Origin: a virus
IMG/VR virus record: IMGVR_UViG_3300025522_000031
Coordinates: 1-31,490 of that record
Direction: 5' to 3' (one strand)
Length of the DNA: 31,490 nt
The notes beneath the pieces were generated by a model, which worked only from the letters and a program-made list of their open reading frames with translations, was not told where the DNA came from and did not search any database. Positions 1 to 31,490 of the stretch are shown piece after piece (the stretch's first letter is position 1; every line of letters begins with the position of its first letter). A program made the position numbers and the translations under genes.

Positions 1-237
1 ATGCGAACAGTTGTCAAGTACCCCGCTAACCGCGAAGTAAAGAAAAAGTTGAAACACGGTGATACGAAGGTTTTGGCTAACAGAACCGGCTATAAAAAAA
101 GTACGATTGGAGTCATCTTAAATGGCCACAGGCGGATGCCGGACATGATTGCAACTGAGATTATAAAATTGATAGAGGAGCGTAGCGCCCTCGCCCAAAA
201 AATGAATCAGTTAGTTCAAGAAAAACCCCAATCATGA
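1..237 (+). CDS. Ner/Cro-like small HTH regulator
   Basis: A 78-residue basic protein with one helix-turn-helix-like segment at about residues 21-46 (LANRTGYKKSTIGVILNGHR), similar in style to XRE/Cro-type DNA-binding domains. It lies directly upstream of the transposase, where Mu carries ner, a 75-residue regulator that represses early transcription. By that synteny I infer an early-operon regulator. The ATG is the first base of the window, so a longer upstream start cannot be excluded and its promoter and any divergent repressor gene are out of view. The HTH is visible; the Ner role is inference. Confidence 0.6.
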   Translation: MRTVVKYPANREVKKKLKHGDTKVLANRTGYKKSTIGVILNGHRRMPDMIATEIIKLIEERSALAQKMNQLVQEKPQS

Positions 238-296
238 AGACCGCGCCGACAGGGAGGAGTTTCGCCGCGTACAGTGTGGATAAGCGGCACAAATTT

Positions 297-324
297 AACC
301 ACGGGGGTGAGGCCTCCCGCGGTT
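297..324 (+). other. hairpin before the transposase gene
   Basis: The 93-base gap between the regulator and the transposase holds an inverted repeat: AACCACGGG (297-305) and CCCGCGGTT (316-324), with one A-C mismatch. It has no T tract, so it is not a good terminator. It sits just before the transposase start and could limit its translation or be a protein-binding dyad. Only the structure is seen. Confidence 0.4.
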
Positions 325-330
325 ATCTGA

Positions 331-2379: not shown

Positions 2380-2401
2380 AACACCTTAAAACACCACAAA
2401 A

Positions 2402-3268
2402 ATGAATGATCAATTACAAAAAAGGGTAGTAGGGGCCCTGGCCGAAAGGCGCAAAAACTGGGGAGGCTCGGACGCCAAGTTTGCCAACTCATTAGGCATA
2501 AACCCGGCAGCATACAGCCGTATAAAGAACGGCGACACAACAAACGTGTTATCAGACGCAAACTGGATCAGCCTTGCCCGCCGCCTGGGCGTGCAGCTGG
2601 ACAACGAGCGCGAGTGGAAGGTTGCCGTAACCGGCGCCTTTCAGTTCATTATGGGTCAGCTTGAATTTTGCAAAATCAATGCGGCCAGCCGCCTGCTTTG
2701 CGACGCACCCGACATCGGCAAAACCTTCACCGCACGTCACTATGCAGCAACACACAAAAACACCGCCTATGTTGACTGCTCGCAGGTAAAAAGCAAGCAA
2801 AAGCTTGTGCGCCACATTGCGCAATCATTTGGTGTGGGCCACACGGGGCGTTATGGTGATGTGTACGCAGACTTGGTGTTTTATCTGCGTGCACTCCCGC
2901 AGCCCCTTATCATTTTGGACGAGGCAGGCGATTTGGATTATAGCGCTTTTTTGGAGCTAAAAGCGCTATGGAACGCAACCGAGGGTGCCTGCGGATGGTA
3001 TATGATGGGTGCAGACGGTCTAAGGGAGAAGATCAGGCGCTCAATTGAGCACAAAAAAGTGGGCTATACCGAGCTGTTTAGCCGCTATGGAAGCCGCTAT
3101 CAACGAGTAAGCCCCGACACCGAGGCCGAGCTCAAGCATTTTCGTATGGCACACGCTGCGCAGGTTATACAGGCCAACGCCCCCGGAACTACAGACATAC
3201 AAAAACTAATCATCCGCAGCGACTATAGCCTGCGCAGGATTTATCATGAGCTAAGGAAGGAAGCATGA
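2402..3268 (+). CDS. MuB-like AAA+ transposition ATPase
   Basis: A 288-residue protein. Residues about 19-68 form an XRE-like DNA-binding domain (FANSLGINPAAYSRIKNG), as in the N-terminal domain of MuB. The ATPase follows, with Walker A DAPDIGKT at 101-108 and Walker B LIILDEAGDL with D173/E174. The first Gly of the classical P loop is Asp here, but the essential GKT is intact. In Mu, MuB binds target DNA, stimulates the transposase and gives target immunity. The A-then-B order supports the same role. It overlaps the next gene by 4 bases (ATGA), so the two are translationally coupled. Confidence 0.88.
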   Translation: MNDQLQKRVVGALAERRKNWGGSDAKFANSLGINPAAYSRIKNGDTTNVLSDANWISLARRLGVQLDNEREWKVAVTGAFQFIMGQLEFCKINAASRLLCDAPDIGKTFTARHYAATHKNTAYVDCSQVKSKQKLVRHIAQSFGVGHTGRYGDVYADLVFYLRALPQPLIILDEAGDLDYSAFLELKALWNATEGACGWYMMGADGLREKIRRSIEHKKVGYTELFSRYGSRYQRVSPDTEAELKHFRMAHAAQVIQANAPGTTDIQKLIIRSDYSLRRIYHELRKEA

Positions 3269-3891
3269 AACAACGCGCCATACCAATAAGCCAGCTAAGT
3301 AAGCAAAGGTTCAGAGGCCTCGAGTTTGAGGGCCCCTGGGCTGATGCTTTGGGGCAGCCTGAAATCACAGGCGCATGGCTCATTTGGGGCAACAGCGGCA
3401 ACGGCAAAACACGCTTTGCACTGCAGCTTGCAAAATACATGTGTCGTTTTGGCCGTGTGGCATACAACAGCCTCGAGGAGGGCGCATCGCTGAGCTTTCA
3501 ACGCGCAGTTGACGCAGTTGATTTTACACCCGTGAGCAGGCGTATGATAGTCCTTGACAAGGAGCCGGTGCACGAACTGATTGCGCGACTGAAAAGGCAG
3601 AAAAGCCCCGACATTATCATTATAGACAGTGTGCAATACACAGGACTAAAGTATCAGGACTACATCAGCCTGCGCGACACATTCAGACGAAAACTATTTA
3701 TCCTGGTGAGCCATGCCGACGGCAAACTTCCCGAAGGTCGTGTTGCTAAAAGCATCCGCTACGACGCGATGGTAAAAGTTTGGGTTGAGGGCTACGTGGC
3801 TTATCCCGTGAGCCGCTATGGAGGCGGACAACCTTATGTGATTTGGGAAGAGGGATCACAACAATTTTATCAAAATACCGAACAGCAATGA
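3265..3891 (+). CDS. RecA/RadA-like P-loop ATPase
   Basis: A 208-residue single-domain ATPase with Walker A GNSGNGKT (42-49) and Walker B PDIIIIDSVQY (D121), followed by a beta strand ILVSHAD resembling the sensor strand of RecA/KaiC/DnaB-type folds. It has no visible DNA-binding domain. Being the third gene after transposase and MuB, it probably acts on DNA early, in replication or repair of transposition intermediates; that role is inference. It shares ATGA overlaps with both neighbours. Similar ATPases are common in the early regions of Bacteroidetes Mu-like elements, but I cannot name a characterised homologue. Confidence 0.7.
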   Translation: MKQRAIPISQLSKQRFRGLEFEGPWADALGQPEITGAWLIWGNSGNGKTRFALQLAKYMCRFGRVAYNSLEEGASLSFQRAVDAVDFTPVSRRMIVLDKEPVHELIARLKRQKSPDIIIIDSVQYTGLKYQDYISLRDTFRRKLFILVSHADGKLPEGRVAKSIRYDAMVKVWVEGYVAYPVSRYGGGQPYVIWEEGSQQFYQNTEQQ

Positions 3892-4292
3892 AACACACAA
3901 TTAAAGAACAACGCGAAATGCGGCAGGCCGAGCTTGCACACCAGGTGTGCAGGCTGCTTGAATTTGACCGCCGCCGCCACAGCGCACTCATGTTTGAACA
4001 GGCCTGCGCATATATGGAAAATCTTGCCGTATCGGGCGAGGTGGCGCAGGAGTTTTTGAGTGAACCGACGTTCTGGAGCTGGTGGAAGCAACAGTGGGCA
4101 ATTATTGATGAGGCATTTATTATGCAGGCGCGGCAAAGCCCCATGGCGGCTGACATCATGCGCAGCTGGTATGAATCGATGCACCGCGAAATTGACACCT
4201 ATCCGGATGCCATCATTTGGCAAATAATTCACTGTTCGTATGAAAAAATGGCTTCGGGCCTGATCACAAAAAAAGTTAGGGCACATGGTTGA
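3888..4292 (+). CDS. hypothetical early protein
   Basis: A 134-residue protein starting at ATG 3888, which overlaps the stop of the ATPase gene by ATGA; a longer frame upstream would overlap that gene by 49 bases and is unlikely. The protein is mostly helical, with a charged N-terminal helix (KEQREMRQAELAHQVCRLLE) and Trp-rich middle (FWSWWKQQW). I do not recognise it. Position within the coupled early operon suggests a phage-replication or host-takeover function, with no direct support. Confidence 0.55.
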   Translation: MKHTIKEQREMRQAELAHQVCRLLEFDRRRHSALMFEQACAYMENLAVSGEVAQEFLSEPTFWSWWKQQWAIIDEAFIMQARQSPMAADIMRSWYESMHREIDTYPDAIIWQIIHCSYEKMASGLITKKVRAHG

Positions 4293-4503
4293 AAATTCAC
4301 GATTGCGGAGCGATTTGAATAAAAATATCGAGCAGTTAAACAAAGAAATTGATGCAGTTGAGGCCGACAAAGGACTCAACATTGAAACCCGCAACAGGCG
4401 GGTGAGCCTGCTGCAGCACAAATTATTATGCCGGCAAACACGCCTCGATTTGCTGGACGGTAAGGTAATTCGCGAGGCGTTTTTTTATCCAAACACCTTT
4501 TAA
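4285..4503 (+). CDS. small coiled-coil protein
   Basis: A 72-residue, highly charged protein with a likely coiled coil over residues 8-60 (LNKNIEQLNKEIDAVEADKG). It overlaps the preceding gene by 8 bases, which supports coupled translation. No known family was recognised. The start at ATG 4285 follows the preceding coding end closely and no better start lies downstream until deep in the coil. Confidence 0.5.
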   Translation: MVENSRLRSDLNKNIEQLNKEIDAVEADKGLNIETRNRRVSLLQHKLLCRQTRLDLLDGKVIREAFFYPNTF

Positions 4504-4507
4504 CCCC

Positions 4508-4723
4508 ATGTACAAAGAATTTTTTCAGCAGGTGGCCCAAATGCGCCATCTTCAAAAATTAAGGGAAACGGGCGTCGAAACCTGTTTTTATGAAACAAAG
4601 CCTGTGTCGCAGATATGCGTTGAACACGAAAGGCGTGTTGATATGATGATTGGCGACATTGAGCGCGGGCAGCTCATGGTTGACCGCGAAGTGGCGGCTG
4701 CAATTACAAAGGAGGCGCAGTAA
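4508..4723 (+). CDS. hypothetical small protein
   Basis: A 71-residue protein with no recognised domain. It is helical and charged, with FFQQVAQMRHLQKLRETG at the N terminus. It begins 4 bases after the previous stop and its TAA shares one base with the next ATG (TAATG at 4721-4725), so it belongs to the same translation unit. Function unknown. Confidence 0.5.
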   Translation: MYKEFFQQVAQMRHLQKLRETGVETCFYETKPVSQICVEHERRVDMMIGDIERGQLMVDREVAAAITKEAQ

Positions 4724-5142
4724 TGAAACAGACAATAACTCCATCGCTTGTTTCGCGCTGCGGCCTCGGTACACCGACGGTTACAATACATGCCCGCGGA
4801 ATTGTATTTAACAAGAGCGCAACGGCACTACTTGCGCTACATGAGGGCTCGCGCTATGTGTTTGAGCTAGACCAAAACGAAATCTACTACATTGACCGCG
4901 CCGGTGATAAAACCGACTGTTTTCAGGTAAACACGGTGCGCAAAACACGGGTTGCCGAAACCAGGAACACGGGCATATTGCCTTACCTGTTTGAAAAGCG
5001 CGACAGCGTAACGCTCGAGATTCTTGAGTTTAGCGAGGGCCGCCGCCTGCTGCGCGAAATGCCTGAGACGTTAAAAACCATTGGAACCGCTAATGGGTTT
5101 GACGTGCCCGTTGTAAAACGCGGCCGAAAGCCGAAAAATTAA
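4723..5142 (+). CDS. hypothetical early protein with basic C-terminal tail
   Basis: A 139-residue protein. The first 70 residues look beta-rich (TVTIHARGIVFNKSATALLA), and the protein ends in a basic tail, VVKRGRKPKN, that could contact DNA. The N-terminal pattern is loosely like small beta-barrel DNA-binding folds, but I do not assign a family. It ends 23 bases before the DUF3164 gene; the gap TTAACCCTAATTTTTTAAAT is the AT-rich leader type seen before several genes in this window. Confidence 0.5.
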   Translation: MKQTITPSLVSRCGLGTPTVTIHARGIVFNKSATALLALHEGSRYVFELDQNEIYYIDRAGDKTDCFQVNTVRKTRVAETRNTGILPYLFEKRDSVTLEILEFSEGRRLLREMPETLKTIGTANGFDVPVVKRGRKPKN

Positions 5143-5165
5143 TCATTAACCCTAATTTTTTAAAT

Positions 5166-5858
5166 ATGTCAGAAACGATTGACTTATCAAAATTGAGCGC
5201 GGCCGAACTGCGCGCCCTGCTCGCCCAGCGCGAGGCGGAAGAAAGGCTGGCGCGCATTGAAGAGCGCGCTGCATACGAAAAGAAACGTGATAACCTGGTG
5301 CAGTCACTTGTTGCACGTGCTATGGTGCTTCAGCACCAGATGCAGCAGTTTAAGAACTACTGCATGGAGCAGCTCGACGAGTTCAGAGAAACAGCACACC
5401 GTTATGGCGACATCCGTAGCAACTCAAAGGGCGGTTTTAGTCTGCGGCACAGCAAAACCGGCGAGCTCGTGAGCCTCGACAGGAATTCGATACCTGAATA
5501 CGATGAGCGCGCCGCACTGGCCGAGCAGTTGCTTAAGGAGTTCCTTGAGGATAAGGTAAAGAAAAAAGACTTGCAAACCTACCGCACCATTGCCGCGCTG
5601 ATGGAGCGCAACAGACAGGGCGATTTCACGCCCTCGCGTATTGCCGCATTGCTCAAGGTGCGCGATAATTACGATGATGAGCGCTGGCAAAAAGCAATGC
5701 AGATGTTTGTGGAGTCGTTTGGAAACCGCGAAATATCCTACTCTGTGAGCTTTGCCCGCAAGGATTCGATGAGCAAGGATAAAAGCATACTATTGAATTT
5801 TGCGAGCCTTCCGGTGGTAGTTGATGTCGAGGATCAGGGAAGAATGGAGGAAAAATGA
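5166..5858 (+). CDS. DUF3164 family phage protein
   Basis: A 230-residue protein matching the DUF3164 pattern as I know it: an N-terminal charged helix, a central segment (RDNLVQSLVARAMVLQHQMQ) and the C-terminal stretch RIAALLKVRDNYDDERWQKA. DUF3164 genes are a regular part of the early region of Mu-like phages, between transposition genes and GemA. Their biochemical role is not established. The gene overlaps the next small gene by ATGA at 5855-5858. Confidence 0.75.
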   Translation: MSETIDLSKLSAAELRALLAQREAEERLARIEERAAYEKKRDNLVQSLVARAMVLQHQMQQFKNYCMEQLDEFRETAHRYGDIRSNSKGGFSLRHSKTGELVSLDRNSIPEYDERAALAEQLLKEFLEDKVKKKDLQTYRTIAALMERNRQGDFTPSRIAALLKVRDNYDDERWQKAMQMFVESFGNREISYSVSFARKDSMSKDKSILLNFASLPVVVDVEDQGRMEEK

Positions 5859-6031
5859 TCAGCCCAGATATTTTCATGCTTAGTTCTTTGCCTGTCTATC
5901 AAGATATTTTGTTAGTAGATTCTCCTTCTGTAGAGTTTTATCCGGCAAAACATCCTTACATGACTCCCGCCGCACAACGCAGGGCAGCGCGCAAAAGGCG
6001 AAACATACTAAAACGTAAAAGCAAGAGGTAA
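5855..6031 (+). CDS. very small basic protein (58 residues)
   Basis: An open frame of 58 codons starting at ATG 5855, overlapping the DUF3164 stop by ATGA and sharing one base of its TAA with the next ATG at 6031. The first half is neutral and hydrophobic (MISPDIFMLSSLPVYQDILL). The last 20 residues are strongly basic (RRAARKRRNILKRKSKR). The perfect fit between two coupled genes is the main evidence that it is translated. The basic tail suggests nucleic-acid contact; function unknown. Confidence 0.5.
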   Translation: MISPDIFMLSSLPVYQDILLVDSPSVEFYPAKHPYMTPAAQRRAARKRRNILKRKSKR

Positions 6032-6273
6032 TGATAAAACTATTCATCACCGCCTACTTTCAGGTTGCCCTCATAACGGCCAACACCTGGTTCATCAGCC
6101 GCGAGGCATGGGCCGGTGTGGCCGTGTGCGGCTTTGGCATCAGCTATCTGTGGAGCATGAACGTGCGCCGCATCAGCATCAGCTCCGGGCGTGAGCGTAT
6201 TGTGTATTCTACGGGCGCTATGCTTGGAGGCATTAGCGGCTTGCTGGTAGGCAAATTAATTAAAATGCTATGA
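6031..6273 (+). CDS. small inner-membrane protein
   Basis: An 80-residue protein with hydrophobic segments at about 5-22, 28-43 and 62-78, separated by a short basic loop (NVRRISISSGRER). This indicates a two- or three-pass membrane protein. It overlaps both neighbours by a few bases. Small membrane proteins in early phage operons often serve superinfection exclusion or host modulation, but nothing here identifies the role. Confidence 0.55.
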   Translation: MIKLFITAYFQVALITANTWFISREAWAGVAVCGFGISYLWSMNVRRISISSGRERIVYSTGAMLGGISGLLVGKLIKML

Positions 6274-6635
6274 AATACAATGCAAGTAAAAACACCGCCT
6301 GGATGCAGCGGCTGCAGCGGCTCGATAAGATTGTTTGCAAGGAGCTCGTGTTAAGTGATGACTTTTTGGCGCAACACGGCCGATCGCGCAAGCGCGAAAA
6401 CGTGCTTCGCGTGCAGGTGGCAACTCAAATTGCCCGGGCATATGGCACCAAACTAAGAAGGCTCAGCGCTTATTACAAACTCGACCACGCAACATTTACA
6501 AACTCCAGCAGGCGCGTTGAGGGCTATATTGATGTTAACGACAAGCTTACGGTTGACCTGCTTGAGCGGGTGTGCGCCGCGGGCGGCTTTAGTTTCACAC
6601 GTGTAAAATCATATCGCCATGACCGCCGTAAGTGA
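6270..6635 (+). CDS. DnaA domain IV-like DNA-binding protein
   Basis: A 121-residue protein. Residues about 43-85 (VQVATQIARAYGTKLRRLSA, then YKLDHATF and RRVEGYI) resemble the helix-turn-helix of DnaA domain IV, including a D-H-A-T signature like the DHTTV motif that contacts DnaA boxes. The ATPase part of DnaA is absent. I infer a sequence-specific DNA-binding protein that could recruit or block host replication factors at the phage. The match is by pattern only. Confidence 0.5.
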   Translation: MKYNASKNTAWMQRLQRLDKIVCKELVLSDDFLAQHGRSRKRENVLRVQVATQIARAYGTKLRRLSAYYKLDHATFTNSSRRVEGYIDVNDKLTVDLLERVCAAGGFSFTRVKSYRHDRRK

Positions 6636-7059
6636 GTATGACCGCCCAACAAAACACATGATCAGGTGCTTTCACGCCGCACTTGCCAAACGTGGCATTA
6701 TGGACATGAAACCCCTGCTCGTGAGCCAGGCAAGCGACGGGCGCACCGAGCACTGCGGCGAGCTTACGCTCGACGAAATGCAGCGGTTGCTTCGCCTTGC
6801 AAGCCCTGGCTCGCAGGTGCAGGTGTCGGTTGACGTGGAGGCCGGAAATCGCATGAGGCGCCGCATACTGAGCCTGTGCTACACAATAGGCTGGACATCA
6901 TACAGCGCCACACAGCGGCGCGCCGTGGTTGACATGGCGAGGCTTGACGAGTGGATGGTGAGTTACAGCTACGGCCACAAACCGATGCAGGACTACACCA
7001 TTGACGAGCTTCCGCGCCTGGTGTCGCAGTTTGAGTTAATGACAAAAACCCTTGTGTGA
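6619..7059 (+). CDS. GemA-like regulatory protein (DUF1018, Mu gp16)
   Basis: A 146-residue protein with the two-part layout of GemA. The N-terminal helices include TKHMIRCFHAALAKRGIMDM and a middle ELTLDEMQRLLRLA; the C-terminal part has RRILSLCYTIGWTS followed by LDEWMVSYSYGHKPMQDYTI. Mu GemA alters host gene expression and DNA supercoiling. Its position after the DUF3164 gene agrees. The start overlaps the upstream gene by 17 bases. Similarity is moderate, so the assignment is probable, not certain. Confidence 0.6.
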   Translation: MTAVSEYDRPTKHMIRCFHAALAKRGIMDMKPLLVSQASDGRTEHCGELTLDEMQRLLRLASPGSQVQVSVDVEAGNRMRRRILSLCYTIGWTSYSATQRRAVVDMARLDEWMVSYSYGHKPMQDYTIDELPRLVSQFELMTKTLV

Positions 7060-7478
7060 TGAAACACTACAGCCTGACGAGTACTACATTTACGGGTGAG
7101 GTGACCTTCGTGTTTAACGACGATGGTTTGCTTCAGAGCTTTGACCAGAGCGGGGCCGGTCTAAGCGAGGCGCAACAGGTTTTTTTGCTGCGCCAGCTTC
7201 CCCGAGACCTGCCCGATATTGAGAAGTTTTTAAAAACATCGCCCACGGCAGTCTTCACCGAAATAAAGCAAAACATTACGTTCGAGATGTTTTGGGATAA
7301 GTACAACGAAAAAATCAGGAGTTCGAAAAAGCGCACACAAAGGGCCTGGCAGCGCTTAAAAGCCACCGACCAGGTGAGGGCCTACAACTTCATTTTGAAG
7401 TACGAAAGCTCGCTTTACCCTGGCACTCAAAAAAAGTATGCAGAAACCTATTTAAATGCCGAATTATGGAACAATTAA
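7059..7478 (+). CDS. hypothetical protein of Mu-like early region
   Basis: A 139-residue protein. I choose ATG 7059, which overlaps the TGA of the GemA-like gene by one base, over the GTG three bases earlier. The C-terminal half (FEMFWDKYNEKIRSSKKRTQ, then AWQRL, Y, TYLNAELW) has the W-x-x-L repeat pattern found in small proteins and replication accessory domains of Bacteroidetes phages. The N-terminal half is beta-rich. Role unknown. Confidence 0.5.
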   Translation: MKHYSLTSTTFTGEVTFVFNDDGLLQSFDQSGAGLSEAQQVFLLRQLPRDLPDIEKFLKTSPTAVFTEIKQNITFEMFWDKYNEKIRSSKKRTQRAWQRLKATDQVRAYNFILKYESSLYPGTQKKYAETYLNAELWNN

Positions 7479-7705
7479 ACCCCACCGAACAGGAAAGAGT
7501 AGGTACACAAAATCAGATGATCCTACGGGCCCTGCAACGGGGCCGCAGCCTTACTCCGTTGCACATTTTTCGCGAGTTTGGATGCCTGCGTGCATCGGCA
7601 CGCATCTACGATTTGCGCCGGATGGGCCACGCCGTGAAGACGCGTATGGTGCAGGTGCGGGGCAGTAAGCGTGTGGCTGAATATTACATTGAAAACAACG
7701 ATTAA
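7466..7705 (+). CDS. winged-helix/HTH regulator
   Basis: A 79-residue protein with a helix-turn-helix over residues 17-55 (QMILRALQRGRSLTPLHIFR, then EFGCLRASARIYDLRRMGH). It matches a small phage HTH family in which the segment ARIYDLRRxGH is typical. In Mu the end of the early region encodes Mor, the middle-promoter activator. This gene occupies a comparable place but has a different fold signature, so a Mor-like role is speculation. It overlaps the preceding gene by 13 bases. Confidence 0.65.
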   Translation: MEQLNPTEQERVGTQNQMILRALQRGRSLTPLHIFREFGCLRASARIYDLRRMGHAVKTRMVQVRGSKRVAEYYIENND

Positions 7706-7729
7706 ACACAATTTAAAAACCCTTTAAAC

Positions 7730-8128
7730 ATGACAACAACGACAATTATTTACCTGGTTATTGCCATACAGTTGGTGATAATGCTGCTGATGGCGGTTTA
7801 CAACGTGCAATTTATTGCCTGGGAGCGCGCCGGGCGCGCGGGCAAGCAACTATGGAGCCGCCGCTGGCACCGCACGGGTGCGCTGATCCGCGGCGGTGTG
7901 TGGCTTGTGATGCTGCTGCTGAAGGTTCCAGCCGCGTGGGTGTTGCTGGCCGCATTGCTCGCCTGGCCGGTTTACAATGGCATCATCAATATGTCTTTGG
8001 GCAGGTCATTCTTTTACCTTGGCGCAACTGCCTGGACCGACCGCGTGATACCTGAGTGGGTGCATTACATGGCCTACCTGGGGCTATTATGGGGAACCGT
8101 GGCGGCTTTTATTATGGGAATGTTTTGA
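7730..8128 (+). CDS. multi-pass membrane protein
   Basis: A 132-residue protein with hydrophobic segments at about 5-24, 55-80 (probably two passes) and 112-131, and a basic cytoplasmic loop at 32-50 (WERAGRAGKQLWSRRWHR). No holin or transporter signature was recognised. It is preceded by an AT-rich leader (TTTAAAAACCCTTTAAAC). Possible roles include exclusion or host-membrane modification; none is supported directly. Confidence 0.55.
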   Translation: MTTTTIIYLVIAIQLVIMLLMAVYNVQFIAWERAGRAGKQLWSRRWHRTGALIRGGVWLVMLLLKVPAAWVLLAALLAWPVYNGIINMSLGRSFFYLGATAWTDRVIPEWVHYMAYLGLLWGTVAAFIMGMF

Positions 8129-11726: not shown

Positions 11727-12173
11727 TTATTTAAGTATTAGTTCATCCATCATTTTGTCGAGCTTTTCGCCTATGCGTCTGTTGAGCTCCTCGCTGGGGC
11801 CTATCATGCGGCGCTCGGGCATTGTAAACCCTGGCGGGCGGCCTGCCTTAAGGCCCTCGTTGTGCACGCCTGCATAAATTCTGTTGCTACTAAACACAAC
11901 CTGCTTGTTGCCCGCCTGTGCCTGCCAGCTGCGGCGCAGCGATCCGCCACGTTTTTCGCCGATCAGGTTTGGTTTTTTGGCGTCTTTTACCTGCTTTTTT
12001 TTCCACTTTTGCACACTACCGGGCTTGTCCTGGAAGCCCTGCACGCGGAAATTGTCGGCAATAAACTGCAGCCCCTCAACGCGCAGCACCTGCGGCGCGC
12101 GCGCAAGCAGGGCCGGAAACTCGCGCTCTATTTTGCTCAGCCTGTTGAGCAGGGCCTGGTTATCGTTGCTCAT
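11727..12173 (-). CDS. Mu gpG-like virion morphogenesis protein
   Basis: A 148-residue protein. The C-terminal motif PPGFTMPERRMIGPSEE is the hallmark (R-x-F/MPxRPFxG) of the phage virion-morphogenesis family that includes Mu gpG, a tail-completion or head-tail joining protein. The N-terminal half is basic and helical. It overlaps the end of the portal-MuF gene by 14 bases, as expected in a coupled late operon. Confidence 0.75.
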   Translation of the reverse strand: MSNDNQALLNRLSKIEREFPALLARAPQVLRVEGLQFIADNFRVQGFQDKPGSVQKWKKKQVKDAKKPNLIGEKRGGSLRRSWQAQAGNKQVVFSSNRIYAGVHNEGLKAGRPPGFTMPERRMIGPSEELNRRIGEKLDKMMDELILK

Positions 12174-14052
12174 CGAGGTAATCGTTTAGCAGCGTTTCGG
12201 CGCTGGCGCGGATGTTGAGGGCTGTTGCCTCGTCAACATCTTTATAGGTTTTGTCGTCGAATAGTTTGCGGTCCTTGCCGGGGTTAAACCTAAATCCGGC
12301 ATCGGGTTTAAAGTCTGGTTTCCTGGTTGCCGGCTTATCGGTTTGTGTTACCGTGCAGCGACAGCCCCAGCCGTTGGGTGGGTAGTTGCGGTTCCAGAAT
12401 GGGTCATCAATCGGCAAAACGGTTCCGTCAAGTGCCGCGTGGTCGTCGCGGGTAAACTCGTCCATAACGGCGTCGTAGCGCAAATTTGGATAAAGGTCTT
12501 TTGCCTCCTGAAACCCTTCCCATTTGACGGCCATCTGCGCGCTTGCCTGCGCCTGGCTGTATTCAGTCAGTAGCCACTCGCGGTTGTATTTTTCGGTCAA
12601 CGGGGCCGCCGCCTTGCGAAAAGTTTGCCAGTTAACGGGCTTACCGTCTGCGCCAACGAGTAGTTTTGCAAGTGCCTGCTGCTCGTCGTGGTTTTTAAAA
12701 GCCGCAAAAACTGCTGCGTCATGCCTCAGTGTGCGCGCAAGGTCGGCATACTGATATGTGGCCTCGTAGCTCATGCCAACGTCACTCAGCGCGCGCAACA
12801 GCCTGCGAAGGGTAAATTGCCACATGGTCTTGTCAACCCCCTGCACAGTGCCCTCAAAATAGCGCCTTAGCCATGAGTCGAGCGCCGAGGCCGCAACAGG
12901 CTGCAGGTCGGGCGAAAAAATCAGCTCAGTCTTTTTTTTTTGCGCGACGAGGCGGTTAACAGGTTCCTGCGTTGCGTTTGTGTCGTCGCGCTTTTCCTCA
13001 ATAACAAACTCAAAGGTGCAATCAGCAAGCGGATAACCGAGTTTGACCATCAGGGGGATCAAACTGTAATTAATATGGTTGCTGATCCGGCGCAGCCTGG
13101 CCTTGGTGTAGTCGTTCAAAATGCGCTCGCCCACTTCGGCACTGCCCACAAAGGCTTTTTCGTCGGATGTACCGCTTTGCCCGTTGATGACTTTGCTGAT
13201 ATACTCATCCGACATCCGCATAGAGCGCTCAAAGTTTGCCGCGTTGCTGCTAGTGCTTTTTGCCTCCAGGATATTAACCTGGTCGTCGAAGTCGCGCACA
13301 ATGTACAGGTTGCTACCGAAGCTGCTTGCCATGGCCACTTTTTTCATTGTTTCCTGGTCGTCGCTGGTGTCGGTTGCAATGTCGAGGATTGGCTTACCGT
13401 AACGCTCGTTAAAATCTGACCAGTCGGCGCGGCTGAAGTTTTTATAGATCACCTCGAGCGTGATCAGCTGCATGGTGCCCAGGTCGGCCGGATCGCCCGC
13501 CTCGAGCATATGAAAACCCTCTAAAACGGCATCATCGTAAGGCGCGCCGCGTAGCATGGCGGGGTGAGTGATCATCTCGCGGCGGTCGGCAATCACGTAG
13601 CGGCGCGGAAACACGGAGCATTTTACAAACTCACCGTTTACCAGGTCGCCCAGTTCGAGCAGCGTGTAGCCCATCAACTCAGCGTCAATCAGGCCCTCAA
13701 GATAGCCGTCAAACCAGGGTCTTTTGAAGTAATACTTCAGATCGTCGTTTTCGGTGTCGCCCTGCCATATTATATAAGGAACAGACTGCACCTTATTAAC
13801 GGCGATAGTAAACTGGCTTTCAACGTGGCTGTCTTTGCGCGCCTGCTTGTATAACAGCTGCAGGTCGTTCCGCGTTGGGTTGTAGGCGTCTTCTGCCGCG
13901 TCAACAGCCTCCTTCAGATTGCTGATCGTTAGCCCGATCCGATTTATATTGTCAGGCTGTAGGGGCGGGGGTTGGTTTTTGCGCCTTTTTGTGGGCGGTA
14001 TGGGTGCAAACTTATCGAGCAGCCGCTCTAAAATGCTTGGTTTTTTAGTCAT
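12160..14052 (-). CDS. portal (DUF935, Mu gp29-like) fused to MuF head protein (gp30-like)
   Basis: A 630-residue protein. Residues 1 to about 400 match the DUF935 portal family (YNPTRNDLQLLYKQARKDSH, then TMQLITLEVIYKNFSRADWS and FVGSAEVGERIL). Residues about 400-570 match the MuF minor head domain, ending with WNRNYPPNGWGCRCTV (GWGCRC at 561-566). In Mu these are two genes, 29 and 30. Here they form one polypeptide with no internal stop. The portal ring is the DNA channel and MuF lies beside it inside the head. The fusion appears genuine because reading is continuous across the junction. Confidence 0.85.
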   Translation of the reverse strand: MTKKPSILERLLDKFAPIPPTKRRKNQPPPLQPDNINRIGLTISNLKEAVDAAEDAYNPTRNDLQLLYKQARKDSHVESQFTIAVNKVQSVPYIIWQGDTENDDLKYYFKRPWFDGYLEGLIDAELMGYTLLELGDLVNGEFVKCSVFPRRYVIADRREMITHPAMLRGAPYDDAVLEGFHMLEAGDPADLGTMQLITLEVIYKNFSRADWSDFNERYGKPILDIATDTSDDQETMKKVAMASSFGSNLYIVRDFDDQVNILEAKSTSSNAANFERSMRMSDEYISKVINGQSGTSDEKAFVGSAEVGERILNDYTKARLRRISNHINYSLIPLMVKLGYPLADCTFEFVIEEKRDDTNATQEPVNRLVAQKKKTELIFSPDLQPVAASALDSWLRRYFEGTVQGVDKTMWQFTLRRLLRALSDVGMSYEATYQYADLARTLRHDAAVFAAFKNHDEQQALAKLLVGADGKPVNWQTFRKAAAPLTEKYNREWLLTEYSQAQASAQMAVKWEGFQEAKDLYPNLRYDAVMDEFTRDDHAALDGTVLPIDDPFWNRNYPPNGWGCRCTVTQTDKPATRKPDFKPDAGFRFNPGKDRKLFDDKTYKDVDEATALNIRASAETLLNDYLDEQR

Positions 14053-25658: not shown

Positions 25659-27635
25659 ATGGCACTTGACCCAACCGCCCTTTACGAAAAAATTGACAGC
25701 CTGGTGGGTAGCGACAAGCTTACCGAAGGCCCTGAAATGAATCAGCTTTTGAAAGACGTTTTTGAAAGCCTTGAGGTGCAAACAGCGGCCGACGCAGCCG
25801 CCACCGCTGCGGACCGTGTTCAAACCGGGTTTGATGTATCCGCAACCGGCGCCAACGCGGCCGTCACCGCGGCTGATCGCGTTCAAACCGGGTTTGATGT
25901 AGCCGCAACCGGCGCTGACGCAACCGCCACCGCAGCCGACCGCGTTCAAACCGGTTCAGACCGCGTTGCCACGGGTGAGGATAAAGTAGCTACAGCTGCA
26001 GATCGCGTTCAAACCGGACTCGATGTTGTTGCCACAAATGCCGATGCAGTTGCCACCGCAGCCGACCGCGTTCAAACCGGTTTAGACCGTGTTGCCACGG
26101 GTGAGGATAAATTAGCCACGGCTGCAGATCGTGTTCAAACCGGTTTAGACCGCGTTGCCACGGGTGAGGATAAAGTAGCTACAGCTGCAGATCGTGTTCA
26201 GACCGGTTCAGACCGCGTTGCCACGGGTGAGGATAAAGTAGCCACGGCGGCAGATCGTGTTCAAACGGGGCTAGATGTCGCAGCCACAAATGCCGATGCG
26301 GTTGCCACCGCCGCCGACCGTGTGGCTGTGGCCGCCGATAAAGATTATGTTGAAAGCCTTGTTGTCACAGCCGGCACATATCCTTTGTGGTACGGTGTGC
26401 AGTTTGACACCACCATTTCAAGCCCTGATGGAACACGGATTGGTAACAGCGATTTGCACCGCGAGCTTCCTATTCAAAATGGTATGTACGGCTGTGTGCT
26501 TGCCGACAATGGCGTGGAGGCCTACCGGCTTAACCCTGCTAATTGGGCTGAAAAAATTAACGGAGGGGCTTCCGTTCTGGATGGCACCGATGGGCAGGTG
26601 ATGGTTTATGTGCCGGGTTTTTATTTTAAATATGAGCTTGTGGGCACAACCTGGCGCTTTAAAATAAGCCAGTTTGAGCTGCCGGGCTTTACCTATTCCA
26701 AACCTCAATATGTAAGTGCTTATGAGGCATCTGTAAGGCGCGCTGATAACGTGCTTAGCTCGGTTAAAAACACCACCGCGGCCTATCGCGGCGGAAACAA
26801 CAATGCCGCTTGGGATGCTGAAGACCGCACATTGTTAGGAATGGCAGCCACTTCACTTTCGCGAACTAATTACCGAACCTATGCCCGCGCACGTGGTGCA
26901 GGGTGGGAAATGTATAACTACTACGCACATTGGAAAATAACCTGGTTGTTTACAGTTGAATATGCCACATTGAACAGCCAGAAGGCTTACAATGCCGCCC
27001 TTGATGTGAATGGCTATCGGCAAGGCGGACTAGGGAATGGAGTTACGAATTTAAACGGCACGCACTGGAACGCATGGAATCTTTATTATCTATTCGTGCC
27101 TTGCGGCTACACCGATAGTTTGTCCAACGGCACCGGCGAAGTTTCATTTATTATGCCCGCAGGTTATAATGCCGGCAGCGGTCTGCAAACATTTGCCAAC
27201 CGCTACAGGGGCATTGAACAGGTATTTGGCCACGGATGGAAAAATGTTGATGGTATTAATATAAGGGCCGCACACGCAGCCGATGCCGACCCCACGCACA
27301 GGATTTATGTTAGTGAAAACCCCGCGCACTGGAACGACGCTAATTATAATAACATGACTGATATAGGTATCGCACCGCGTGCTGATGGTTATATCAAACA
27401 AATGCTACCAGGGCATCTTGTGCCTTTAATCGCCACAGGCGGCGGGTCAACCACCTTCTGGTGTGACTACTGGTATCAAAACATACCTGCATCTGCACCT
27501 GCACTGCGTACCCTCCTGCTCGGCGGCGCTGCGCTTTCTGGCGCGCTTGCGGGGCTCGGTTGCTCGTATTCGGCTGATTCGCCGGCGTCTGCGATTGCGC
27601 TTATCGGGTCTCGGCTTTGCTTTATCTCTGCTTAA
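25659..27635 (+). CDS. DGR-diversified receptor-binding tail fibre
   Basis: A 658-residue protein. Residues 1-48 form an N-terminal attachment helix. Residues 49-216 are eight 21-residue repeats (TAADRVQTGxD... each three heptads), a predicted coiled-coil or helical shaft. The C-terminal domain from about 245 resembles the C-type-lectin-like fold of DGR target proteins (VMVYVPGFYFKYELVG, ARARGAGWEMYNYYAHWKIT, FVPCGY, then RTLLLGGAALSGALAGLG). The last 40 codons are the variable repeat. The tip is the likely receptor-binding surface, retargeted by the retroelement. An AT-rich leader precedes ATG 25659. Start choice is firm: it follows the tail-tip stop by 33 bases. Confidence 0.85.
   Translation: MALDPTALYEKIDSLVGSDKLTEGPEMNQLLKDVFESLEVQTAADAAATAADRVQTGFDVSATGANAAVTAADRVQTGFDVAATGADATATAADRVQTGSDRVATGEDKVATAADRVQTGLDVVATNADAVATAADRVQTGLDRVATGEDKLATAADRVQTGLDRVATGEDKVATAADRVQTGSDRVATGEDKVATAADRVQTGLDVAATNADAVATAADRVAVAADKDYVESLVVTAGTYPLWYGVQFDTTISSPDGTRIGNSDLHRELPIQNGMYGCVLADNGVEAYRLNPANWAEKINGGASVLDGTDGQVMVYVPGFYFKYELVGTTWRFKISQFELPGFTYSKPQYVSAYEASVRRADNVLSSVKNTTAAYRGGNNNAAWDAEDRTLLGMAATSLSRTNYRTYARARGAGWEMYNYYAHWKITWLFTVEYATLNSQKAYNAALDVNGYRQGGLGNGVTNLNGTHWNAWNLYYLFVPCGYTDSLSNGTGEVSFIMPAGYNAGSGLQTFANRYRGIEQVFGHGWKNVDGINIRAAHAADADPTHRIYVSENPAHWNDANYNNMTDIGIAPRADGYIKQMLPGHLVPLIATGGGSTTFWCDYWYQNIPASAPALRTLLLGGAALSGALAGLGCSYSADSPASAIALIGSRLCFISA
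25803..26350 (+). repeat. eight tandem 63-bp coding repeats
   Basis: Each unit encodes 21 residues of the form TAADRVQTGxDxxATxxDxxA; starts fall every 63 bases from 25803 to 26244, with a partial ninth. Near-identical stretches recur (GATCGTGTTCAAAC), which would allow copy-number change by slippage or recombination. Confidence 0.85.
27510..27621 (+). repeat. DGR variable repeat (VR)
   Basis: 112 bases at the 3' end of the fibre gene, aligned to the template at 27704-27815 (offset 194). I count 23 differences at template adenines, 5 adenines unchanged, and one non-adenine difference (T27778 in the template, G27584 here). Ten template Asn codons all differ here (to Ala, Leu, Ser, Leu, Tyr, Ala, Asp, Ser, Ile, Leu). 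Homology stops near 27621, 11 bases before the TAA. Confidence 0.93.
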
Positions 27636-27639
27636 GCAG
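27628..27639 (+). promoter_or_regulatory. palindrome at the VR end
   Basis: CTGCTTAAGCAG is a perfect 12-bp palindrome that includes the fibre stop codon and lies 6 bases after the VR. Many DGRs need a hairpin or cruciform just downstream of the VR for efficient retargeting; this is the obvious candidate, though the stem is short. Confidence 0.4.
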
Positions 27640-27703
27640 GGCGGCACTCGGGCGGTTAAAAAAAAGATAGTTCTTTAATTTATTTACAGGTTGTTACTTT
27701 TCG

Positions 27704-27815
27704 ACCCTCCTGCTCAGCGGCAATGCGAATAATGGCGCGAATGCAGGGCTCGGTTACTCGAATTCGAATAATTCGCCTGCGAATACGAATGCGAATATCG
27801 GGTCTCAGCTATGCT
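27704..27815 (+). repeat. DGR template repeat (TR)
   Basis: The template copy of the variable repeat, 194 bases downstream. It is rich in AAT codons in the fibre reading frame (10 Asn), the usual design for maximal variety after adenine mutagenesis. The frame stays open to TAA at 27914-27916 but lacks a start, so it is not a gene. Bases 27816-27945 between TR and the reverse transcriptase are the expected spacer RNA that primes cDNA synthesis in other DGRs. Confidence 0.92.
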
Positions 27816-27945
27816 ATTTTGGTGTAAAAACCACGAAAGGTAAGGCCTTGCCTCTTGGCAAAAAACGAAACATTCAAAACGGTGTTGGTATCTGCCCCGG
27901 CAGTAGAAGACGCTAAGTACGAATAGCAAAATAAATTGTGTAGTT

Positions 27946-28953
27946 ATGAAGCGGTATGGTAATTTGTATGAAAAGATTATAAGCCTCGAAAATTTGAGGC
28001 TTGCCGATGAGCGCGCCCGAAAAGGCAAATTAAAATCATACGGTGTTGTGAGGCACTGCCGCAATGCAGATGCCAATATTTACGCGCTTCATGAAAGCCT
28101 GAAAACAATGAGTTATAAAACAGGTAAATATCACATTTTTAATATCATCGCCGATAATAACAAAGAGCGCACTATTTACCGCCTGCCATATTACCCCGAT
28201 CGTATTGTGCACCATGCAATCATGAACGTGCTTGAACCAATATGGGTATCAACATTAATTAAACAAACCTATTCGTGTGTAAAAAACAGGGGCATACACG
28301 GAGCGTTTTATGATGTAAAAAAAGCCTTAAGCGATAAGGAAAACACAGTCTATTGCTTGAAAATAGATATAAGAAAATACTATCCAAACATTGATCACGA
28401 AATATTAAAAGAGATAGTAAGGCAAAAGATCAAAGACCCACAATTGCTTAACTTGCTCGATGGCATTATTGAAAGTGCACCGGGTTTGCCTATCGGTAAT
28501 TATTTATCGCAATACATGGCAAATCTTTACTTGTCGAATTTTGACCACTGGCTCAAAGAAACCAAGTCCGTAAAATACTATTTCCGCTATGCTGATGATA
28601 TAGTTGTTTTGCACAGCGACAAAGCCTTTTTGCAAACATTGCTCAACGAAATGAGAGCCTACTTGCGCGACAGCCTGAAGCTCGAAATCAAAAGCAATCA
28701 CCAGGTGTTTCCGTTAGAATCGCGCGGCCTCGATTTTGTTGGTTATGTATTCAGGCACACACACATAAAGCTGCGGAAAAGCATTAAGCAAAACTTTGCA
28801 CGAAAAGTAAAACGTGCCAAAAACTTTAATCCTGAAACATTCAAACAATTGTTTTGTAGCTATCAGGGTTGGGCAACACATTGCAATTCAATAAACTTAA
28901 TTAATAAACTACAAAATAATGCAAAAAGCACATTACGACCAACAGCCGCCTAA
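27946..28953 (+). CDS. DGR reverse transcriptase
   Basis: A 335-residue RT. The catalytic Asp is in CLKIDIRKYYPNID (D141) and YFRYADDIVVL (YADD, 215-218). The stretch GLPIGNYLSQYMANLYLSN (about 180-198) carries the SQ form of motif 4 typical of DGR RTs, where retroviral and group II enzymes have QGxxxSP or similar. It has no maturase or endonuclease domain. It copies TR RNA into cDNA with adenine errors, which then replaces VR. It follows the template by 130 bases and overlaps the next gene by 35 bases. Confidence 0.93.
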   Translation: MKRYGNLYEKIISLENLRLADERARKGKLKSYGVVRHCRNADANIYALHESLKTMSYKTGKYHIFNIIADNNKERTIYRLPYYPDRIVHHAIMNVLEPIWVSTLIKQTYSCVKNRGIHGAFYDVKKALSDKENTVYCLKIDIRKYYPNIDHEILKEIVRQKIKDPQLLNLLDGIIESAPGLPIGNYLSQYMANLYLSNFDHWLKETKSVKYYFRYADDIVVLHSDKAFLQTLLNEMRAYLRDSLKLEIKSNHQVFPLESRGLDFVGYVFRHTHIKLRKSIKQNFARKVKRAKNFNPETFKQLFCSYQGWATHCNSINLINKLQNNAKSTLRPTAA

Positions 28954-29272
28954 GCTTGAAGCCGTTGGTAATGGTAGTCACCTTTACCGGTGGAACATTG
29001 AGCCAATAACACAACCAGCCACCGGCGACCAGCCTGAAAAAACCATGTGGCAATGCAACGAGGTGGTTGTTTGGAACAGGGTAACACGCGAAACTGTTAC
29101 CGAAGCTGTGGTAACAGCTATGTGGCCTATCAATATCGAGGGTAAGTTGATTAATGATTACAATGCCGCAAAAGAAGGCTTGCTTGACGCGAAGTATGAA
29201 CAAGCCTACATTGACTTCATTAAACTGCGGGGCGAGTTGAAAGACGAGATAAAAGCATTTTTCGAACAATGA
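28919..29272 (+). CDS. hypothetical protein next to the DGR
   Basis: A 117-residue protein starting inside the last 35 bases of the RT gene. The layout (QPPKLEAVGNGSHLYRWNIE, CNEVVVWNRVTRETVTEAVV, then a helical C terminus with YNAAKEGLLD and KDEIKAFFE) recalls small proteins encoded after tail fibres in Bacteroides phages, possibly fibre chaperones. It is not a four-helix Avd-like protein. An accessory role for the DGR or fibre folding are both possible. Confidence 0.5.
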   Translation: MQKAHYDQQPPKLEAVGNGSHLYRWNIEPITQPATGDQPEKTMWQCNEVVVWNRVTRETVTEAVVTAMWPINIEGKLINDYNAAKEGLLDAKYEQAYIDFIKLRGELKDEIKAFFEQ

Positions 29273-29571
29273 AATCATTTAAAGACTTTGGTATAAAGCC
29301 AACGAAGCAACATTTTGTTGGTGATAAAATTAAAATTGTCAAGGTTTTAAATAAACAAATTGTTGTAAGCAACTATAAAATTGAGGCAAGCAAATACCCA
29401 AAAAACAAAAGCGGCAACGTAATGACATTACAAGTTATCATCGATGGTGTAAGCTCAATAATATTCACAGGAAGCGACTTTCTGATGGATCAGATTGCCC
29501 AAGTGCCAGAAAGTGATATGCCGTTTACTACAACCATAGTGAAGAATGGAGAGCATTTTGAGTTTAGTTAA
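29269..29571 (+). CDS. small beta-rich protein, possible nucleic-acid binder
   Basis: A 100-residue protein overlapping the previous gene by ATGA. It has alternating strands (GDKIKIVKVLNKQIVVSNYK, NVMTLQVIIDGVSSIIFTG) and ends PFTTTIVKNGEHFEF. The strand order could fit an OB fold of the kind that binds single-stranded nucleic acids, but this is a guess from pattern. It is the last gene of the DGR group, with a large hairpin behind it. Confidence 0.5.
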   Translation: MKSFKDFGIKPTKQHFVGDKIKIVKVLNKQIVVSNYKIEASKYPKNKSGNVMTLQVIIDGVSSIIFTGSDFLMDQIAQVPESDMPFTTTIVKNGEHFEFS

Positions 29572-29587
29572 AAATTAGATAATAAAT

Positions 29588-29716
29588 AGAGGCCTTTGCC
29601 GGCCTCGCGGCGTGTCTCACGACGCCGAAAAGTAAAGGTGCCTATACACCAACGACAAAGACCTCAAAGTCTTTGGAGTGTATAGGCACTTTTTTATTTT
29701 ATAACGTGTGAGACAC
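29588..29716 (+). ncRNA. structured leader before the com-like ORF
   Basis: Consecutive hairpins: GAGGCC/GGCCTC (29588-29605), CGGCGT/ACGCCG (29607-29626) with loop GTCTCACG, and a long hairpin around 29637-29689 (arms near GTGCCTATACAC/GTGTATAGGCAC, inner AAAGAC/GTCTTT) followed by T6. The segment GTGTCTCAC (29611-29619) is also complementary to GTGAGACAC (29708-29716), so the second hairpin and the long-range pairing compete. It lies 18 bases before the ATG at 29735. Confidence 0.55.
29637..29700 (+). terminator. strong intrinsic terminator
   Basis: The long hairpin around 29637-29689 is followed by TTTTTT-A-TTTT, a classical terminator for the DGR group. Being inside a leader that also offers an alternative long-range pairing, it may be conditional. 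Confidence 0.7.
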
Positions 29717-29734
29717 TACAAAATTAACATTAAA

Positions 29735-29875
29735 ATGAGTAAACCACAAAAAAAATCCTACGCCTACAAACCCGCCTACGGGCTTGTAATCATCTGCAAA
29801 AGTGAGGCCGAACAAATCGAATTGTTTAACCGCCTCAAGGCCCATGGTCTTGAGCTAAAAGTAGTAACTGTATGA
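29735..29875 (+). CDS. 46-residue Com-like small protein
   Basis: A 46-codon frame starting ATG 29735 and overlapping the next start by ATGA (29872-29875). The sequence KPAYGLVIICKSEAEQIELF and KVVTV at the C terminus is of a kind I have seen before phage modification genes, but without an established function. Mu com, a small translational activator, overlaps mom in the same way. Unlike Com, this protein lacks a four-Cys zinc finger (one Cys only). So position is similar, mechanism need not be. Confidence 0.5.
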   Translation: MSKPQKKSYAYKPAYGLVIICKSEAEQIELFNRLKAHGLELKVVTV

Positions 29876-31002
29876 AAATTGAAATTAATCACAGCTGCCA
29901 GAACTATAGCAGCTACCGCGCCGAGCGTGTGAAATCACTATTCAACCCAGAGCATGGCCACACCTGGAGCCACACCACTGAATTGCCTATTGAAAACGCT
30001 CAATGGCAAATTGGGTTAATAGTTGGTCCATCCGGCAGTGGTAAAACATCAATTGGGGCTCAGGTTTGGCCGGAAAGGCCCTTATATGACCTTTACGCAG
30101 ACTGGCCCGGTAACACACCCATTATTGACGCAATATCCCCACACGGCGACTTTAATGCCGTTACAGCATCACTGGCCGCCGTGGGCTTGGGCGATGTTCC
30201 GGCTTGGCTCAGGCCGTTTAATGTGCTGTCGAACGGCGAGAAATTTAGGGCAGGTTTAGCCAGGCTAATATGCGACCGCCCTACAACAGCCGTAATTGAT
30301 GAATTTACATCAGTCATCGACCGGCAAATTGCCAAAGTAGGCGCGGCGGCATTTGCCAAAAGCTGGAGGCGTGGCACTGGGCAGGTCGTTTTACTTACGC
30401 CACACTACGACGTGGCCGAGTGGCTTCAACCGGATTGGGTTTACGACACAAAAGAGGCGCGGTTTTTTAACCGTGACTGCCTTCGGCGTCGCCCGCAGAT
30501 TGAACTCACAATTTACCGAGTTCCGGGGACAAAATGGAGTTATTTTAAGCCGCATTATTATTTAGACCTCCCGCACCCGGTTGCGGCTCAGTACTTCATT
30601 GCGTTTGTTGGCGATGAGCCAGTCGCACACCTGGCCGTTTGCCCTATGTTCCAGGGTGGCCACTATAGGGCCACACGCCTGGTCGTTATGCCCGAGTGGC
30701 AGGGTATTGGAGTTGGCACGGCCTTTCTTAACGAAATTTGTCGTTTACATCTTGATGGCCATGGCCGCAACGGCCATAGGTTTACAACACTATTTCACAC
30801 CAGCCACCCGCAGTTATGCGAGGCACTACGAAGGTCAAAAAAGTGGGTGCAGGTTTCAGGTGCTTTAAAGTTTGCAAACAAGGCTAAAAGCATTCACACC
30901 TTGCAAAACGCCGCTGTTAAAAAAGGTGAAAAGTGTAAGTCAGGCGGCTTTGGGGGCCACTTCAGAGCTGTACAGGGATTTGAATATATTGGAGGTGTAT
31001 AA
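29872..31002 (+). CDS. ABC-type ATPase fused to a GNAT acyltransferase (putative DNA modification, Mom-like position)
   Basis: A 376-residue protein. The ABC ATPase covers about 40-195: Walker A GPSGSGKT (52-59), signature LSNGEKFRAG (119-128), Walker B TAVIDEF (D143, E144) and H-loop LLTPHYD (H178). A GNAT domain follows, about 210-340, with motif A ATRLVVMPEWQGIGVGTAF (267-285), the acyl-CoA pyrophosphate loop. There are no transmembrane segments, so this is not a transporter. In Mu the right-end gene mom is itself a GNAT-like enzyme that modifies adenine. I infer an ATP-driven base-modifying enzyme. It shares a base with the next start. Confidence 0.65.
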   Translation: MKIEINHSCQNYSSYRAERVKSLFNPEHGHTWSHTTELPIENAQWQIGLIVGPSGSGKTSIGAQVWPERPLYDLYADWPGNTPIIDAISPHGDFNAVTASLAAVGLGDVPAWLRPFNVLSNGEKFRAGLARLICDRPTTAVIDEFTSVIDRQIAKVGAAAFAKSWRRGTGQVVLLTPHYDVAEWLQPDWVYDTKEARFFNRDCLRRRPQIELTIYRVPGTKWSYFKPHYYLDLPHPVAAQYFIAFVGDEPVAHLAVCPMFQGGHYRATRLVVMPEWQGIGVGTAFLNEICRLHLDGHGRNGHRFTTLFHTSHPQLCEALRRSKKWVQVSGALKFANKAKSIHTLQNAAVKKGEKCKSGGFGGHFRAVQGFEYIGGV

Positions 31003-31490
31003 TGATTATAAAAGTAATAGGCGACCCGGGAGCGCCTGCGTATCAGACAAGCTTAAGTGTTGTGCGTAAGCTGGGCCACGCCGTGCATGATAGTAGGTAT
31101 TTTTACTGCGATTTAGCGGTTGCCCCACTACTGACCTTTAGGCTCTCCCCTGACGAGATTAACGAGCCGATACACGGCACGTTGATATTTCACCCAAGCC
31201 CATTGCCTTACGGCCGTGGCGCGAGCTCACTAAGGTGGGCATACAGGCGTAAGGAGCCCATAACCGCCGCGTGTTGGTTTTGGGCCACCGAGCGCCTCGA
31301 CGCGGGTGATATATGCGAAAGTGAAATAATAAAGATAGACTATTCAATGAGCCCTAAGGCCTACTATCACATGCATGTATTGCCAGCTCTTGAAAGAACT
31401 CTGCAACAGGCCTTAAAGGCCATTTCGGGGGGATATATACGCCGCATTCCGCAGCAGGAGGCCTACGCCTCATATGATCTTAAGTTGTAG
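31002..31490 (+). CDS. small formyltransferase-like enzyme
   Basis: A 162-residue protein ending at the last base of the window. It has the core signature of methionyl-tRNA and GART formyltransferases: FHPSPLPYGRGASSLRWAY (H64) and WATERLDAGDI (D100). The Asn two residues before the His, nearly always present (NVH or NIH), is Ile62 here. It lacks the C-terminal tRNA-binding domain of Fmt and is about half its length. It begins at the stop of the ABC-GNAT gene (TAATG), so they share a pathway. Likely substrate: a modified base or its acyl donor, by context only. Confidence 0.7.
   Translation: MIIKVIGDPGAPAYQTSLSVVRKLGHAVHDSRYFYCDLAVAPLLTFRLSPDEINEPIHGTLIFHPSPLPYGRGASSLRWAYRRKEPITAACWFWATERLDAGDICESEIIKIDYSMSPKAYYHMHVLPALERTLQQALKAISGGYIRRIPQQEAYASYDLKL

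Follow-up and report, generated by a model that had tools for sequence, protein, structure and literature searches.

A probable Avd-less diversity-generating retroelement directed at the tail protein of a Mu-like phage

A tail gene, a pair of near-identical repeats and a reverse transcriptase (RT) gene lie in succession in the viral record IMGVR_UViG_3300025522_000031, of which we analyzed a 31,490-nucleotide stretch (the window). The locus raises the question of whether these parts form a working diversity-generating retroelement (DGR) that alters what the phage tail can bind. The original prediction, made from the DNA letters alone, had proposed an intact DGR, and the template and variable repeats, the RT and the fold of the target uphold that proposal. 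We conclude that the locus is very probably a functional DGR of the Avd-less target-TR-RT type that varies the tail binding of a Mu-like phage.

Phage genome, repeats and target protein

The predicted kinship to Mu was borne out by MuA-type and MuB-type genes (phrog_310 and phrog_296), a Mu portal (Portal_Mu, E = 2e-48) and Mu F domains (Phage_Mu_F, E = 3e-17); DUF3164 is also present. The terminase and portal are encoded on the minus strand. A single 630-aa fusion protein (12160-14052, minus strand) carries both the Mu portal domain and the Mu F minor head domain. The record starts and ends at gene boundaries, and the true phage ends lie outside it. A contig of 8624 bp (L110) is identical to window positions 1-7925 and extends 699 bp further upstream with a probable repressor gene. 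Upstream of this gene, positions 1-50 of the contig carry short G-rich repeats (GGGGGGACAAAT) that possibly represent the left end of the phage with its transposase sites. The window closes with an ABC-type ATPase-GNAT acetyltransferase fusion (29872-31002, phrog_11143) and a formyltransferase-like gene (31002-31490, PF00551). Together they recall DNA-modification pairs of phages, such as Mu mom.

The variable repeat (VR, 27510-27623, plus strand, 114 bp) has a translation that ends in GSRLCF. The template repeat (TR, 27704-27817, plus strand, 114 bp) contains 29 adenines and ten AAT codons. Direct alignment of the two is gapless at an offset of 194 and reveals 25 differences, 24 of which fall on the 29 template adenines. 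The repeats had first been drawn over 112 bp (27510-27621 and 27704-27815); over that length, which includes 28 adenines, we recovered the same gapless alignment and the same 23 of 24 differences at template adenines. The full repeat is 114 bp, 2 bp longer than first noted, because T27622 in the VR stands opposite A27816 in the TR. Were the 24 differing sites of the 112-bp alignment placed randomly, so many would fall on adenines with P ~5e-18. The sole non-adenine change is from T27778 to G27584, as had been described, and it is silent (Pro, CCT/CCG). All ten template Asn codons, in-frame AAT, are indeed altered in the VR. No A-to-N change in the TR can yield a stop codon, and its 17 variable codons allow for ~9e15 possible proteins. 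A second VR is absent from both strands of the window, where the next-best site has at least 43 non-A mismatches versus one for the VR. Just 3' of the VR, a perfect palindrome (CTGCTTAAGCAG, 27629-27640, plus strand) is a candidate for the element found at the BPP-1 stem-loop position. Stems of at least six pairs occur at this position in 11 of 66 loci versus 3 of 66 control stretches, a weak enrichment.

The target gene (25659-27635, plus strand) encodes a 658-aa protein with N-terminal repeats and a C-terminal C-type-lectin-type domain that carries the VR. It had been called a tail fibre, and its match to phrog_5302 (E = 8e-107) identifies it as a tail protein; Pfam lectin families gave no match to it. 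The C-terminal domain was modeled with AlphaFold (residues 242-658, 417 residues, built from 32 relatives; pLDDT 89.6, pTM 0.92). The best structural match of the model is TaqVP, a Thermus DGR variable protein (5vf4, Z 24.3 over 259 residues), followed by the formylglycine-generating-enzyme/C-lectin group with TvpA (2y3c, Z 12.2) and Mtd (Z ~10). The domain is thus predicted to adopt the same C-type-lectin fold as DGR variable proteins of known structure, in line with the lectin-fold target proposed at the outset, and the VR forms the end of the modeled domain. The N-terminal repeats (25780-26340; AADRVQTG.DRVATGEDKVAT...) match the structure of the autotransporter adhesin BpaC in sequence and, weakly, an ice-binding beta-roll. 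Scans with the tail gene returned almost solely relatives of the N-terminal repeats from viral contigs and none from genome contigs, and a search for relatives of the 620-aa gene upstream found none.

Reverse transcriptase, spacer RNA and the search for Avd

The RT gene (27946-28953, plus strand) is an intact ORF of 335 aa with a Pfam RVT_1 match (E = 4e-19) and the YADD and LPIGNYLSQ motifs noted earlier. Its best solved match is 8ub7 (E = 8e-42), which we take to be the BPP-1 DGR RT (the molecule name of the entry is only 'Reverse transcriptase'); group II intron RTs trail at 4e-13 and weaker. Residues 2 to 321 align with 8ub7, placing YADD opposite YMDD and PIGNYLSQ opposite PIGSLTSQ. The protein is 57% identical to the RT of the crAss-like phage cr55_1 and ~32% identical to that of Hankyphage. 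It groups with cr55_1 in a phylogenetic tree (support 92/93), of which only this neighborhood was used because Hankyphage and BPP-1 form long branches.

The spacer between the TR and the RT is structured and matches the RT-17 RNA (Rfam RF03020; 27844-27933, plus strand) with 49.2 bits, against a gathering threshold of 40.4 (E = 9e-7 over the whole window). RT-17 also occurs in 31 of 46 other loci with related RTs, always within ~35 bases of the RT start. In 30 of the 31 it lies 3' of a detected TR, and the remaining locus (L122) is without a detected pair. The first RT-17 hairpin (27848-27861) covaries across 24 loci, with pairing kept in 95% of cells and two-sided changes at two pairs; control positions obtained by sliding are all far lower in pairing. 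Taken as a single sequence, the spacer is not unusually stable (z 0.4). The slot between TR and RT is occupied by Phage_DGR (Rfam) in BPP-1, by RT-3 in Hankyphage (L112, 38553-38702) and by RT-14 in the Mu-like Bacillus phage BalMu-1 (L117, 2834-2977). These families, together with RT-17, look like DGR spacer RNAs.

In BPP-1, the spacer RNA both brings in the RT-Avd complex and serves to prime cDNA synthesis (PMC12875486). By analogy, RT-17 is probably an RNA for RT recruitment and priming. A wider proposal casts RT-17, RT-3 and RT-14 as priming RNAs of DGRs, compact equivalents of the BPP-1 spacer, and holds that in the Avd-less lineage RT-17 and the RT alone recruit and prime, a step that is Avd-dependent in BPP-1. 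We consider the case for this proposal evenly balanced. RT-17, listed in Rfam without a function, gains a definite slot and a likely role in Avd-less DGRs, and the Avd-less RT-17 cassette could provide a small system for studying priming without an accessory protein.

The window has the order target-TR-RT without avd: it contains no match to PF05635, a search that covers known Avd families only, and a homolog of the annotated Avd of Hankyphage is absent from every locus examined. The RT gene is followed by a gene for a 117-aa acidic protein (28919-29272, plus strand, pI 5.0) that is not Avd-like. A 100-aa protein comes next (29269-29571, plus strand), with homologs in 28 relative loci, often in the same neighborhood. 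After this ORF, a strong hairpin (29640-29690, GTGCCTATACACC ... GGAGTGTATAGGCAC) and a T-run are probably a terminator.

The 117-aa protein could be thought to replace Avd as an RT partner that the DGR needs, given that its homologs also directly follow the RT in 17 relative loci and that the annotated Avd of Hankyphage occupies the same position. We regard this role as unlikely. The Avd fold is a four-helix bundle, whereas the model of the 117-aa protein combines a beta sheet with three helices and gave no confident solved match in a fold search. Moreover, its homolog in the crAss-like cr50_1 follows the tail gene while the RT is elsewhere, and it goes undetected in most DGR relatives. Its acidity counts against the role as well, a weak point since the annotated Avd of Hankyphage is also acidic (pI 4.7). 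The 117-aa protein is probably a member of the tail module, as a tail-protein partner or chaperone.

Variation among relatives

An upstream VR/TR pair was found in 65 of 80 IMG/VR relatives of the RT. Pooled, these pairs are changed at 1294 of 1997 template adenines (65%) versus 37 of 5373 other bases (0.7%), figures that are somewhat biased, as the pair finder favors adenine differences. Comparison of VRs between near-identical contigs shows variation (nearly) solely at template-adenine positions. Three contigs (L046, L047 and L048) are identical across 3029 flanking bases, the TR and the non-adenine VR sites, yet 13-17 of the 27 VR sites that face adenines vary between them. A pair (L010 and L011) differs at 17 of 29 such sites versus 2 of 2643 flanking bases, and another (L054 and L055) at 20 of 34 versus none of 1483 flanking bases and 2 of 97 other VR sites. 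The RTs of the trio are 47% identical to the window RT and those of the first pair 57%, and L046 carries RT-17. These sequence comparisons bear the signature of mutagenic retrohoming and show that a lineage with the same kind of cassette is active, and we infer activity in the phage studied here. A search of IMG/VR with the TR/VR pattern (N at adenine sites) returned no close relative of this phage that carries a VR of its own, and the sole near-identical contig, L110, ends at window position 7925, so activity in this phage rests on one VR/TR comparison.

Two other arrangements were observed among the relatives. In nine loci (L006, L008, L014-L017, L118, L120 and L121), two VRs ~400-420 bp apart are served by one TR. 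An apparently identical DGR element, judged by coordinates and scores, occurs in three yak-gut MAGs labeled Salinivirgaceae, Paludibacteraceae and Opitutales (L153, L164 and L171), which indicates either a mobile element or a binning error.

The single VR state known for this phage would fit a DGR that worked recently and is now inactive, as a decayed or silent copy. We consider this improbable: the RT ORF, the catalytic motifs, the TR, the RT-17 match and the reading frame of the target are all intact, relatives are active, and the differences take in 24 of 29 adenines but a single other base. More radically, the RT might serve another purpose, as an anti-phage RT, a retron or a group II intron, the repeat being a coincidence. 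PADLOC and NCBIfam do return defense and group II RT families, but the matches to defense families reflect general RT similarity, and those in NCBIfam fall far under the curated cut-offs. The best solved match is a DGR RT, and neither the adenine bias of the repeats nor the same arrangement in 65 relatives fits a coincidence. We therefore reject the defense-RT reading, to which we assign a negligible probability, and retain that of a functional DGR.

The relatives also provide information on errors at bases other than adenine. Across 111 distinct TR/VR pairs, counted at interior positions only, T to G accounts for 19 of 35 distinct non-adenine events, where equal frequencies of the nine types would give ~4 (P 5e-10). 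The lone non-adenine difference of the window (27584/27778) is of this type. The commonest change at adenines is A to G; both excesses fit an RT that prefers C misinsertion, and T to G is possibly a second error preference of DGR RTs.

Proposed mechanism and comparison with known retroelements

We propose that the TR and the RT-17 RNA are co-transcribed and that the latter recruits the RT. The RT would then reverse-transcribe the TR, introducing errors at its adenines, and the resulting cDNA would take the place of the VR, at the 3' end of the tail gene. In the lectin-fold domain, as many as 17 codons could change in this way, never to a stop, giving access to the ~9e15 protein variants. The result would be variation in what the tail of the Mu-like phage binds, and an effect on host range, including host switching, is plausible.

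BPP-1, a Bordetella phage that to our knowledge is not Mu-like, shares the VR/TR logic, full-length RT homology, a lectin-type target (Mtd) and a structured RNA between TR and RT. It differs in that its avd lies between target and TR and in its RNA family (Phage_DGR).

Hankyphage (p00), a Bacteroides Mu-like phage with an active tail-fibre DGR (PMC6199706, PMC12135933), resembles the window in its nearly identical gene order, minus-strand portal and terminase, and a DGR near the right end that targets a tail fibre. Its cassette is distinct, with RT-3 rather than RT-17 as the spacer RNA and an Avd annotated after the RT.

The published DGR of crAss-like phages has the order target-VR-TR-RT, no avd, a lineage 3 assignment and CLec3 targets (PMC7290462). 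The window shares with this type (crAssphage LMMB, PMC7290462; cr55_1) the order, the lack of avd, a tail target and a C-terminal lectin-type VR, and cr55_1 has its own VR/TR pair. The window cassette differs by residing in a Mu-like transposable phage and by a spacer that is recognizable as RT-17, whereas a search of cr55_1 for RT-17 gave no match above threshold. VRs of crAss genus I have lost the SRLC motif (PMC7290462), which the window VR keeps. By sequence, the cassette appears to match the published Avd-less lineage-3 type and to be nearer to crAss-like cassettes than to that of Hankyphage; the grouping of its RT with cr55_1 lends indirect support to a lineage-3 placement. A Mu transposase was detected in 3 of 41 relative records, possibly an underestimate, since many of these records are fragmentary. 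Most simply read, the data suggest that a tail-DGR cassette has been exchanged between crAss-like and Mu-like phages, which are unrelated types.

A Mu-like phage with an active tail-fibre DGR is already published (PMC6199706, PMC12135933), as is the Avd-less architecture (PMC7290462). The locus described here adds a second DGR cassette type for Mu-like phages of Hankyphage-like gene order, along with the modest additions of the RT-17 assignment, the apparent cassette exchange and the predominance of T to G among putative secondary errors.
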